A DNA stretch of 64,000 bases from a virus. Under the pieces are notes generated by a model. The model was given only the letters and a program-made list of their open reading frames with translations. It did no database searches and was not told where the DNA came from. Every line of letters begins with the position of its first letter. Position 1 is the first letter of the stretch. Shown one piece after another: positions 51,242-54,649 of the stretch. Location: IMG/VR virus record IMGVR_UViG_3300042545_001134, positions 182,600 to 246,599 of that record. The stretch is one strand, 5' to 3'. Made by a program: the position numbers and the translations under genes.

Positions 51242-53158
51242 TTATGATTGACTAGTATAATCTCTTGGACTAGTTCCATTTAAAAATTCGTCAATTGCTT
51301 CGGGTCTTCTAACAAGATATCTTGACCATTCATCCATAATCGTATCACTCTTAATATTAAGTGTAACTTCTGTTTTATTGGATTGTGGTTCAGTTGTTGT
51401 TGCCGGTGTATTTGTTGTCGGTGTTGAATTGTTAACAGGTACTGATTGTTGTGGTGTTGATTTAGAACCATACATTCCAACGTCAGTTGCCATTTTAATT
51501 GTTTTGTCCACCACGTCAATATTTGCGTTTTTTGCACCAGTTTTTGAACTCTCGTTCATTTCTTTCGCAGTTTTTGAAAGGTAATCTGAGACACCTTTTG
51601 TTTCCGCATCAATGGCAGCACCTGCAATTCTCGCTTCACGAGCAAATCTAACTCTCAAAATACCTAAAATTTCAGCGACATTCAACGCCATATTTTGAGT
51701 TTGAGTAAATTGTTCTTTTGCGATTTGTTCAGTTGACATTTCTTCAAATGCCTTTTGATTTGCCAATAATGCATCCGCTTCAACTTTGGTTAGAGTATCT
51801 AAAGCAATTCTCTGAGCTCCACCAAATTCTTTTGATATAGAGGAAACGTCAATAACCATTTTACCACCTTCCATTCTTGAGATGTTGGTTAAGAATTCTT
51901 TCTCTTTTTCATCTAACGCAAATCCTTTTGACATAAGAGCAGTTGATGCGGACTGTCTTTCGGATGCCTTAATAGAAGTTTTACTTAATTCTTCCATTGT
52001 CATTCCGAATTGCTCAGCCATCGCTTTTGCCTTTCTTAAATTAACTCCTGTTATTTCAAAACGACCTTGTTCTTGGTTGTAAGTTGCTAATGAACCTGCA
52101 GCGCCTATTATTGCATCCTGTATTCCTCCAACATCATTTGTTGCGTTATACATCATTTTAAGTGGGTCGTTAAAATCACCAATTGCACCACCTATTGCTT
52201 GTAAATTTGCCGTTAAATCAATTGCTTGGTCTGGGTCAAATAATTTTTCAGCCAAATCAAAGGTATTCTGCATGTTAAATTTGAATTGAACTGATTGTTG
52301 AACCATTTTGGTTAAACCTTGAACCCCATTTTGAAAACCGTATTGGTTTATTTTAGATAAATTCGTATTTACCTCAGATACAACCTTTCTAGAGTTTAAA
52401 CCTAAAACCATAGATGATTTACCCGCCTCGTTAATTTGTTCTAACGCATCTCCCGCTCCTATACCAATTTCATTGAAGTTGTTTAGATATTGTGGAAGGT
52501 CCTGTAAGTTACCAATGAACGCTCTTGATGTAACCGCCCCCTTTTCAAAAACATCAGCACCAACCATCGCCATATTACCCATGTCTTGTGACACTTGCAT
52601 GGTAGTTGACGCTAATTCATCGAAACTATATCCCATACCTGCAACCGCGGGCATGGCTTCAAAAATATTATCCCTATAATCTCTCGATAGTTGGCCCGCC
52701 ATTCCTAATTTGGCGTTTACTTCGTTTCTTAATTTAACTTCGTTAGTAAGAACGTCCGTTATTTGTTTACCGGCAAATTCTAAGGATTTAAAAATTGAGT
52801 CACCGAGTAATGAGGTTATACCTCCACCCAGACCACCTCTAATTGTTTTTACAATATCAGTAACCTCAAGTTTTTCATTATCAGCCAATGACGCTGAAGC
52901 GGGTAGACTTTGAGAACCAGCTAATCTTTCAACAAAATCGCCACCTGTTTTTGATGCGGCTTTACCAAAACTATATTTATCGCCACCACTATTAGAACCA
53001 GTACCCCGACCAATAAAACCTTGGGCAAATTGAGACTGCTCGCTACTTGACAATGGATTACCTCCATTTAATTTTTTAGCATATGCCTCCGATTGAGTAT
53101 CAGAATGATTTAACTTTCTTGAGTCTTCACCTACTTTTTTCCAATCAATTGTTGCCAT
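51242..53158 (-). CDS. Tape-measure-like protein (T4 gp29 position)
   Basis: A 638-aa, largely helical protein rich in Ala, Gly, Ser and Gln, with small-residue repeats and hydrophobic helices (for example GGGITSLLGDSIFKSLEFAG near 105-125 and GGIQDAIIGAAGSL near 345-360). This is typical of tape-measure or hub-lysis-tip proteins threaded through the tail tube. T4 gp29 is 590 aa. The strongest support is gene order: tube, tail-assembly gene with overlapping frame, then this gene. The N-terminal about 60 residues and the Thr/Pro/Gln-rich region near 575-605 look disordered. An octamer ends 3 bases before its ATG. Confidence 0.7.
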   Translation of the reverse strand: MATIDWKKVGEDSRKLNHSDTQSEAYAKKLNGGNPLSSSEQSQFAQGFIGRGTGSNSGGDKYSFGKAASKTGGDFVERLAGSQSLPASASLADNEKLEVTDIVKTIRGGLGGGITSLLGDSIFKSLEFAGKQITDVLTNEVKLRNEVNAKLGMAGQLSRDYRDNIFEAMPAVAGMGYSFDELASTTMQVSQDMGNMAMVGADVFEKGAVTSRAFIGNLQDLPQYLNNFNEIGIGAGDALEQINEAGKSSMVLGLNSRKVVSEVNTNLSKINQYGFQNGVQGLTKMVQQSVQFKFNMQNTFDLAEKLFDPDQAIDLTANLQAIGGAIGDFNDPLKMMYNATNDVGGIQDAIIGAAGSLATYNQEQGRFEITGVNLRKAKAMAEQFGMTMEELSKTSIKASERQSASTALMSKGFALDEKEKEFLTNISRMEGGKMVIDVSSISKEFGGAQRIALDTLTKVEADALLANQKAFEEMSTEQIAKEQFTQTQNMALNVAEILGILRVRFAREARIAGAAIDAETKGVSDYLSKTAKEMNESSKTGAKNANIDVVDKTIKMATDVGMYGSKSTPQQSVPVNNSTPTTNTPATTTEPQSNKTEVTLNIKSDTIMDEWSRYLVRRPEAIDEFLNGTSPRDYTSQS

Positions 53159-53171: not shown

Positions 53172-53321
53172 TTAATTTGTATTTTCTATATCCATAAGAT
53201 ACTTTATATAGTATCTTCGAACATAGATAGGCATACCCATAATATCCCCATAAGAGAACCCTCTTTTGACTAAAAATAAAATTTCGTCTAACTGACCTTT
53301 CTTATAATCCGTAGAAAGGGC
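53172..53321 (-). CDS. Overlapping +1-frame extension of the gp26-like gene (candidate programmed frameshift product)
   Basis: Beyond a T6 run at 53328-53323 the frame +1 to the gp26-like gene stays open for 49 codons to a TAA at 53174-53172. It reads ALSTDYKKGQLDEI... and contains GFSYGDIMGMPIYVRR followed by a Tyr/Lys-rich helix. This has the look of the C-terminal part of tail assembly chaperones, with a helix, a Met-Pro turn and an Arg-Arg segment. There is no ATG at its beginning. A peptidyl-tRNA-Phe on TTT (53325-53323) could slip forward to TTC, giving a 292-aa fusion. Location between tube and tape-measure genes fits the G/GT arrangement of other phages. A -2 shift would give the same frame. 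Not experimentally shown; a sequencing error is the main alternative. Confidence 0.6.
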   Translation of the reverse strand, partial: ALSTDYKKGQLDEILFLVKRGFSYGDIMGMPIYVRRYYIKYLMDIENTN

Positions 53322-54051
53322 GAAAAAACCCAACCCCGAACCCAATTTCAATTTGGGTAATATCTCCAGACGGGGTATTAATTGTTTGGGTTAAATTCAC
53401 ACCCGGTTTATTTTCTTCTACAAACTTTCTAAAATCTTGAGAGTCTTTGATTGGTAATCTATCAACAAAATTGTGAGTATTCATTAAATCCTTATTTCCC
53501 TCAACGGATTTAATCATCATCTCAAGTTTTTTTGTGATGATAGGTGCAACCCCATTACCATTCCAACTTGTTTCAATATCTTTTAATTCTTTTTCTTGTT
53601 TTGAGGTCAAAAATTTAAAAGTAATATTAACCTTACTTTTTTCCATATGATATGGATATTCACCATTTGAATCCGCAACTAACGTAAAGTCTTTATATTT
53701 TAATTCACTTAAATCGATATCAACAGTAAACTCTTTTTCTGTTTTTGGGTCGATTGTTGTGTATTTGTATATTGAACCGAACGCGGTATTTCGTAAGAAA
53801 ATTAATATCGCCTGTTTATCTTCTTCACATAATTCATCAGTATTGAAGTCTTTATCTAAAACTTTTCTTTTGAGTAGTTCTTCGAGCATTTTATTACTTG
53901 CCAGTAAATTTGCCGATGATAGGATATTTTCATCAGATGCGGTTAAATACGCGATTCTTAATGATTTCTTACCACTTGGGTAATGAATACCTCTTGAAGG
54001 TAATTCTACAACATCATATGATATTGTTGGGTCGATTCTAAATTCTTCCAT
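53302..54051 (-). CDS. gp26-like baseplate/tail assembly protein, probable tail assembly chaperone
   Basis: The 249-aa product shows the outline of the T4 gp26-type baseplate family. It begins with VELPSRGIHYPSGKKSLRIA, then YLTASDENILSS (the L-T-x-x-D-E-x-I-L motif), KVLDKDFNTDELCEEDKQAIL and RNTAFGSIYKYT. It lies between the tail tube and tape-measure genes, where tail assembly chaperones are encoded in many phages. Its last codons include TTT TTT before a stop seven codons further, and a second frame continues past it. The C-terminal 45 residues (VNLTQTINTPSGDITQIEIG...) are beta-like. A hub-assembly or chaperone role is inferred from family resemblance and order. Confidence 0.72.
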   Translation of the reverse strand: MEEFRIDPTISYDVVELPSRGIHYPSGKKSLRIAYLTASDENILSSANLLASNKMLEELLKRKVLDKDFNTDELCEEDKQAILIFLRNTAFGSIYKYTTIDPKTEKEFTVDIDLSELKYKDFTLVADSNGEYPYHMEKSKVNITFKFLTSKQEKELKDIETSWNGNGVAPIITKKLEMMIKSVEGNKDLMNTHNFVDRLPIKDSQDFRKFVEENKPGVNLTQTINTPSGDITQIEIGFGVGFFRPFYGL

Positions 54052-54160: not shown

Positions 54161-54649
54161 TTAGTAAACTTGGATACATCTATCCATACGTAAAGACGCA
54201 GTGATAGTTGCGATATCGTCTCTTGAGTAATCAAGTTCATTGAAGTTCAAGTCAGTCAAGAATGTACCTTGAAGAATCCATTTTTCAACCACAACACCCG
54301 TTGGGTCTAACATCTCCAATTCGATGTCTTTCTTATAACCCGCAGCGTAACCCATACGACCCGTAACAGACTCAGCGTGAAGACGGAACCATTCCATCAA
54401 TGCCTGTGACGCAGAAGGACCAATAGGGTCTTTAAACGTTACTCTTAATTCGTTCCACTCAAAACGTCCCGCAACATAAGTTGAGGTATTGATGAACGGA
54501 ATCGCAACTGAATTGATTTTTGCACTTGGTCTAGCCGCTGATGACACATACCATTCGTTGATACCCAATGAAGAAGGGAATCTAAGTATGAATCGGTTAA
54601 CTCTTTTCGGTTCGTAAGGAACCGGCATTTTCATTAATAAATCTGCCAT
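54161..54649 (-). CDS. gp19: Tail tube protein, T4 gp19-like
   Basis: The 162-aa protein is almost the same length as T4 gp19 (163 aa) and has its pattern: an N-terminal arm (PYEPKRVNRFILRFPSSLGI), a central segment with WNELRVTFKDPIGPSASQAL, and the closing strand pair ILQGTFLTDLNFNELDYSRD...ITASLRMDRC. This fold, shared with Hcp and gpV-type tube proteins, stacks as hexamers to form the inner tail tube. It follows the sheath gene as in T4, separated by a 306-base regulatory-looking gap, and has its own terminator. The leader is unusually long (octamer 44 bases before the ATG). Confidence 0.93.
   Translation of the reverse strand: MADLLMKMPVPYEPKRVNRFILRFPSSLGINEWYVSSAARPSAKINSVAIPFINTSTYVAGRFEWNELRVTFKDPIGPSASQALMEWFRLHAESVTGRMGYAAGYKKDIELEMLDPTGVVVEKWILQGTFLTDLNFNELDYSRDDIATITASLRMDRCIQVY

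Follow-up and report, generated by a model that had tools for sequence, protein, structure and literature searches.

Frameshifting has reportedly been kept in several groups of T4-like phages, T4 itself being said to use genes 26 and 51. The tail assembly chaperone (TAC) genes of T4-like phages were identified by Vladimirov, Gautam and Davidson in 2022 (Virology 566:9-15; cited in PMC10885494 and PMC12846349), and these citing papers credit that work with two TAC genes in some of the phages and with polyT -1 signals in such genes. A review of 2016 had described G-T frameshifting as widely conserved, with T4 as an exception; the lambda G part attaches to the tape measure, and the T part to the tube protein (PMC5009743). 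T4 gp26 and gp51 have been listed as hub assembly chaperones (PMC3004832), and the record of Acinetobacter phage Stupor names gp26, gp51, and gp28 as tape measure protein assembly chaperones. As for forward shifts, the tail-chaperone region of the haloarchaeal myovirus HSTV-2 has been described as very likely using +1 (PMC5009743), and PRFect predicts 0 of the 481 forward shifts in RECODE.

The gp26-family gene described here very probably is a TAC of the T4-like gp26/gp51 family that produces short and long forms by a +1 shift at TTT TTT C. The original prediction, a candidate programmed-frameshift TAC between the tube and tape-measure genes with Phe-tRNA slipping +1 at TTT-C, is supported by conservation; its accompanying view, by which proteins of the gp26 type are not generally regarded as frameshifted chaperones, has been overtaken by what the citing papers report of Vladimirov et al. 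(2022).

The locus and its conserved +1 extension

The window (the whole 64,000-nt stretch of DNA analyzed) belongs to a virus record of 310,691 bases, and its relevant features are as follows.

54161..54649, minus strand: tail tube gene, directly upstream of the gp26-family gene (phrog_4542, E 1.5e-23)
53302..54051, minus strand: putative short chaperone form (TAC-N, gp26 family), 249 aa, 0-frame ORF (PF12322; phrog_150)
53333..53376, minus strand: predicted upstream RNA hairpin (from pairing coordinates, covariation, and synonymous recoding)
53376-53371 with 53338-53333, minus strand: outer stem, ACCCCG with CGGGGT
53358-53353 with 53345-53340, minus strand: inner stem, ACCCAA with TTGGGT
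53329..53332, minus strand: 4-nt spacer from the outer stem to the slip codons
53322..53328, minus strand: putative slip site TTT TTT C, its C being the first base of the rare 0-frame Arg codon CGC
53302..53322, minus strand: short 0-frame tail past the slip codons (RPFYGL plus stop), overlapping the +1 frame
53172..53321, minus strand: putative TAC-C, T-like domain, ALSTDYKKGQLDEILFLVKRGFSYGDIMGMPIYVRRYYIKYLMDIENTN, 49 aa plus stop, +1 frame
51242..53158, minus strand: probable tape-measure gene, directly downstream, 638 aa (from position and length)

The predicted positions were confirmed: the gp26-like gene ends at 53302, the sequence TTTTTTC at 53328-53322 precedes the divergence of the frames, and the +1 frame remains open for 49 codons 3' of the slip site, as far as a stop at 53174-53172. 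In profile searches, the 249-aa 0-frame protein matches PF12322 (T4_baseplate; E 1.1e-10) and phrog_150 (E 1.4e-9, 38.8 bits), and its fold matches in BFVD are T4-like baseplate hub assembly proteins. Predicted folds of the short form and of a T4-type gp51 gave no significant match in the PDB, YqbN (3klu) appearing at a probability of only 0.23 and not being counted as evidence. The gene sits between a tube gene assigned by profile match and a tape-measure gene identified by position only, in a group that also holds a sheath-size ORF on the same minus strand; the 638-aa ORF at 51242..53158 has no significant Pfam or PHROG match, and in Flavobacterium phage immuto the record calls the product of the corresponding gene a tail tape measure protein. 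No tRNA genes were found in the 64,000 nt.

Conservation of the offset was assessed in 80 IMG/VR relatives from the clade of the window (clade A), 78 of which are readable at the junction, the contigs of the other two ending too early. The extension lies in the same +1 offset in all 78, and the junction, GGG GTN GAR TTT TTT CGN CCT TTC TAY GGN NTA TAR, is near-invariant with few exceptions. In the sister clade (clade B, of the immuto type), 79 of 80 relatives are readable and all 79 place the extension in +1; their site reads TTT followed by CTT, TTT, or CTA and, in nearly all, by TGG CCT GAC. Across the two clades, the extension is therefore in +1 at 157 of 157 loci, none showing a -1 extension behind an X XXY YYZ heptamer. 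A sequencing error, which the original prediction had named as a possible refutation together with single-frame relatives, is excluded because the +1 offset is conserved in relatives; none of the relatives in clades A and B fuses the two parts in one frame, and the extension itself is conserved.

Slip site and direction of the shift

In 18 clade A relatives the +1 frame opens only three codons ahead of the junction, so that the shift must fall between that point and the 0-frame stop, a stretch of about 27 nt. Within it, TTT is the only codon able to re-pair in +1 (TTT to TTT or TTC). The choice between the first and the second TTT leaves the protein identical in clade A; one variant (L066) requires the second codon for the slip, and the stem spacing and clade B fit the first better. 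With the second TTT in the P site, the A-site codon in clade A is CGN, and in the window CGC is used 0.3 times and all CGN codons together 6.3 times per 1000 codons. This A-site codon is not universal, since relatives carry CGT, CGA, or, in L066, CTC, and the clade B codons are CTT, TTT, and CTA, not CGN.

The offset had originally been put down to "+1 (or -2)". If the ribosome moved by -2 on the T6 run, the extension would be unchanged except for an additional Phe, and the run permits such a shift in most of clade A. Frameshifting by -2 is known in phage Mu. It is known in arteriviruses as well (PMC5009743). However, three clade A variants (L066-L068) read GAA TTC TTT CTC, and part of clade B reads TTT CTT or CTA TGG; these sequences hold no run for re-pairing in -2 and yet retain both TTT-C and the offset, and an upstream hairpin, such as that described below, is expected to oppose backward shifts (PMC6321510). 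Because the variants break the -2 run and keep TTT-C, +1 is favored over -2 on this sequence comparison, and we regard a -2 shift as improbable.

The same variants show that a simple T6 run is not the signal, since those without it keep TTT-C and the offset; of the expected conservation in relatives, the offset held in 78 of 78, and the site was likewise conserved. This bears also on transcriptional slippage, in which the polymerase product at the T6 run would be a population of mRNAs of altered length. A homopolymer of six T is present in most of clade A; six bases are short for such slippage, the run is missing in L066 and much of clade B, and the RNA structure conserved about the site argues for an event in translation instead, leaving transcriptional slippage highly improbable.

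The extension as a domain of the chaperone family

Beyond the 0-frame stop, the extension of clade A has a median dN/dS of 0.11, the gp26 domain standing at 0.21; read in the other two frames, which are wrong, this DNA gives 1.08 and 1.54. The extension in the +1 frame is thus under strong purifying selection, and selection and conservation extend back to the slip site. The question of an independent start codon, which the extension had been said to lack, needs some qualification: the +1 ORF of the window holds a TTG at 53351, but this TTG is not conserved in relatives, and 76 of the 78 clade A loci have no ATG ahead of the junction in the +1 frame. In 18 of the 78, ATG, GTG, and TTG are all absent, because the +1 frame opens only three codons before the junction. 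An independent start codon as a general explanation is ruled out by these start-less frames.

Some arrangements do resemble a separate small gene with its own or a coupled start, comparable to the cyanophage gp51 annotation: the extension is annotated as an ORF of its own, a separate hypothetical protein, in Microcystis phage Mel-JY01 (L083:4228-4464) and partly in immuto (L082:4354-4464; truncated), likewise in cyanophage P-SSM5, and a TAATG overlap occurs in Pseudomonas phage Cygsa01. Against this stand the clade A frames without an upstream ATG or without any start, the selection and conservation reaching back to the slip site, and a profile comparison in which both parts align as one protein. 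A separate gene at this locus is, on balance, very unlikely, and a single frameshifted gene remains the reading that we follow.

T4 gp26 and gp51 are paralogues, both of which match PF12322. Along the 282 positions of phrog_150, T4 gp51 reaches position 280 and T4 gp26 ends at 235; the fused protein of the window scores 47.5 bits, 8.7 more than the short form, with a match running to position 269, and so enters the region covered only by the long T4 gp51. In hhalign comparisons, the +1 clades A and B align with E 5e-45, the fused form of clade B aligns with the fused -1 form of cyanophages (clade C) with E 5e-6, FF being aligned on FF, and the cyanophage form aligns with T4 gp51 with E 2e-18. 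Neither the isolated clade A extension against the C-terminus of T4 gp51 nor the fused clade A form directly against T4 gp51 gave a significant match, the link passing through clades B and C. Judged by these profile alignments, the extension is placed where T4 gp51 has its extra C-terminal domain and is homologous to it via this chain of clades.

The direction of the shift is divided within the family. The extension is also in +1 in Mel-JY01 and in the uncultured phage LR756508, whereas it is in -1 at T TTT TTC in P-SSM5 and its 80 relatives (80/80) and in -1 at T TTT TTN in two Rhizobium phages and Vibrio phage vB_VmeM-32. In the last of these (KU160494, L092:3684-3900), the -1 extension that follows T TTT TTT carries no annotation, the record being blank between gp26 and the next gene, and an IMG/VR search with its gene found no relatives. 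Two further members differ from both types: Xanthomonas phage phiXF1, a distant relative (L086:3411-4300), has a TTC TTT CCC TAA end and an open +1 frame, a possible +1 site of the CCC-stop or TTT-C type, and in Cygsa01 (L093:2572-3482) the gp26 gene and the C-terminal domain overlap at TAATG without a slippery site; this looks like a third arrangement, in which initiation is coupled. A 746-nt match to a gp51 homologue at L262:2001-2746 has a broken frame, through either an error in the sequence or disruption of the gene.

In a tree built on the short-form domain, the +1 rows are all united in one clade (96/90), and a single change between +1 and -1 is the minimum required. The 595-kb uncultured phage LR756511 (L085:3501-4400), whose gp26-family gene carries T TTT TTC, a -1 frame encoding the C-terminal domain, and a long charged 0-frame tail, is the sole -1 row on the +1 side. 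One change of direction is the simplest reading of these sequences, not proof, because the tree lacks a known root, the long branches of LR756511, phiXF1, and T4 gp26 meet in it, and LR756511 groups where it does.

Upstream hairpin, proposed mechanism, and known systems

The original prediction had included neither the split between -1 and +1 in the family, nor the fact that the extension is homologous to the C-terminal domain of T4 gp51, nor a covarying hairpin just upstream of the slip site. In an alignment of 41 distinct clade A sequences, the outer stem of this hairpin pairs (A/G)CCCC(G/A) with (C/T)GGGGT, the inner stem is also present, and the distance from the outer 3' arm to TTT TTT C is 4 nt in all 41, so that a conserved stem has its 3' arm ending close to the E site. 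Of the alignment cells, 94.3% are paired, and the covariation score is 0.187, versus 0.127 in shuffled alignments (0 of 500 as high) and at most 0.084 in slid ones. At synonymous positions, CCG occurs together with TTC (20 sequences) and CCA with TTT (16), 5 of the 41 being unpaired. On the tree, the covarying positions change six and five times, jointly six, and the supported branches provide only three independent pairs, of which two agree, none opposes, and one is unchanged; three such pairs are too few for the covariation to reach significance once kinship is taken into account. Synonymous recoding gives the hairpin a mean z of -2.6, the lowest in the gene (background mean -0.24, SD 0.34, minimum -1.2). 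The same scan shows no stable structure just downstream of the slip in clade A; a weaker signal, with a mean z of about -1.4, begins about 31 nt past the 0-frame stop, towards the tape-measure start (53172-53270). The bulge of the clade A hairpin conserves TCNGGAGA (53362-53370), a Shine-Dalgarno-like stretch of the AGGAG type in most relatives, which reads TCAAAGGA in L075-L077.

A short candidate stem of five pairs, likewise spaced by 4 nt, occurs in clade B; its covariation is weaker (3 of 500 shuffles as high), and its mean recoding z is about -1. A strong hairpin in clade B is rejected on this weak signal, and since the stem is short and its covariation weaker, the hairpin is not established as a general +1 feature. 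In the -1 cyanophages, a strong hairpin stands 5 nt downstream of the slip site (z -4.6 to -5.2), and synonymous recoding gives no upstream structure signal.

An upstream refolding hairpin acts like an internal Shine-Dalgarno sequence on 70S ribosomes, raising +1 and lowering -1 shifts (PMC6321510, Huang 2018), and an upstream hairpin stimulates +1 in yeast (PMC3639245, Cho 2013). The hairpin before the slip site, from its position and conservation, probably helps the forward slip in the clade of the window. For the expression of the two forms, their ratio, the P-site position, and the stimulatory role of the hairpin, we infer the following scheme. Most ribosomes would stop at 53302 and yield the short form TAC-N, whereas a minority would shift +1 at TTT TTT C and yield a 292-aa TAC-NC with the T-like C-terminal domain. 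In the shift, Phe-tRNA (anticodon GAA) in the P site would move from UUU to the overlapping +1 codon, reading then resuming after UUC; with the second UUU as the slip codon, the rare CGN in the A site would be slow to decode. Behind the ribosome, the hairpin would refold, its 3' arm lying 4 nt before the first UUU, and push towards +1 and away from -1, standing in for an internal Shine-Dalgarno sequence. The two forms would serve as a tail assembly chaperone, perhaps with binding roles like those of lambda G and T.

Before the ATG starts of longer ORFs in the window, a Shine-Dalgarno-like motif occurs in 0 of 35 cases; since the shuffled expectation is only 0.6, this means absence of Shine-Dalgarno use, not depletion, and starts of this kind are what one would expect in phages whose hosts are not dependent on such sequences. 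A broader proposal would be that in phages poor in Shine-Dalgarno sequences an upstream refolding hairpin is a natural +1 stimulator in place of the internal sequence, and that the direction of the TAC shift changed once, the structure switching sides of the Phe-Phe site; we believe this about as readily as we doubt it.

The family constitutes a natural experiment, with one gene and a homologous Phe-Phe site read in two directions and hairpins on opposite sides in the +1 clade A and the -1 cyanophages, by which the idea that upstream structure leads to +1 and downstream structure to -1 becomes directly testable in bacteria. The arrangement, kept in about 160 related phages, would supply the missing long chaperone form for many phages in which the extension is unannotated or labelled as a separate hypothetical gene, and the locus would be a forward shift of the kind missed by PRFect. 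In a literature search with most subscription journals outside its reach, no paper was found on the +1 clade or the upstream hairpin; the large +1 clade, the slip-site variants favoring +1, and the upstream covarying hairpin in the clade of the window appear to be new.

The role proposed for this locus is worth comparing with those of known systems. It shares with the TAC genes of T4-like phages the PF12322/phrog_150 family and the combination of a short form with a long form bearing an added C-terminal domain, but would shift +1 at TTT-C with an upstream hairpin, in place of the polyT -1 signals cited for them; T4 has two paralogous genes, for gp26 and gp51, sited elsewhere than between tube and tape measure. 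Lambda gpG/gpGT (Xu et al. 2004) likewise lies between tube and tape measure, a low-level frameshift adding the T domain (PMC5009743), although lambda shifts -1 and the gene of the window +1, the likeness being one of position and arrangement. HSTV-2 offers a +1 shift in the tail-chaperone region of a myovirus, but of an archaeal virus. The bacterial prfB +1 site, CUU UGA with an internal Shine-Dalgarno sequence, resembles the present one in its pyrimidine-rich codon, at which the P-site tRNA re-pairs in +1, and in the duplex lying close ahead of that codon, whereas at the site described here the A site carries no stop, a hairpin would replace the Shine-Dalgarno duplex, and the genes are unrelated. 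The refolding hairpins of Cho (2013) and Huang (2018) likewise place a stem beside the E site; those were reporter constructs, whereas here a natural, conserved candidate is found in a phage gene.
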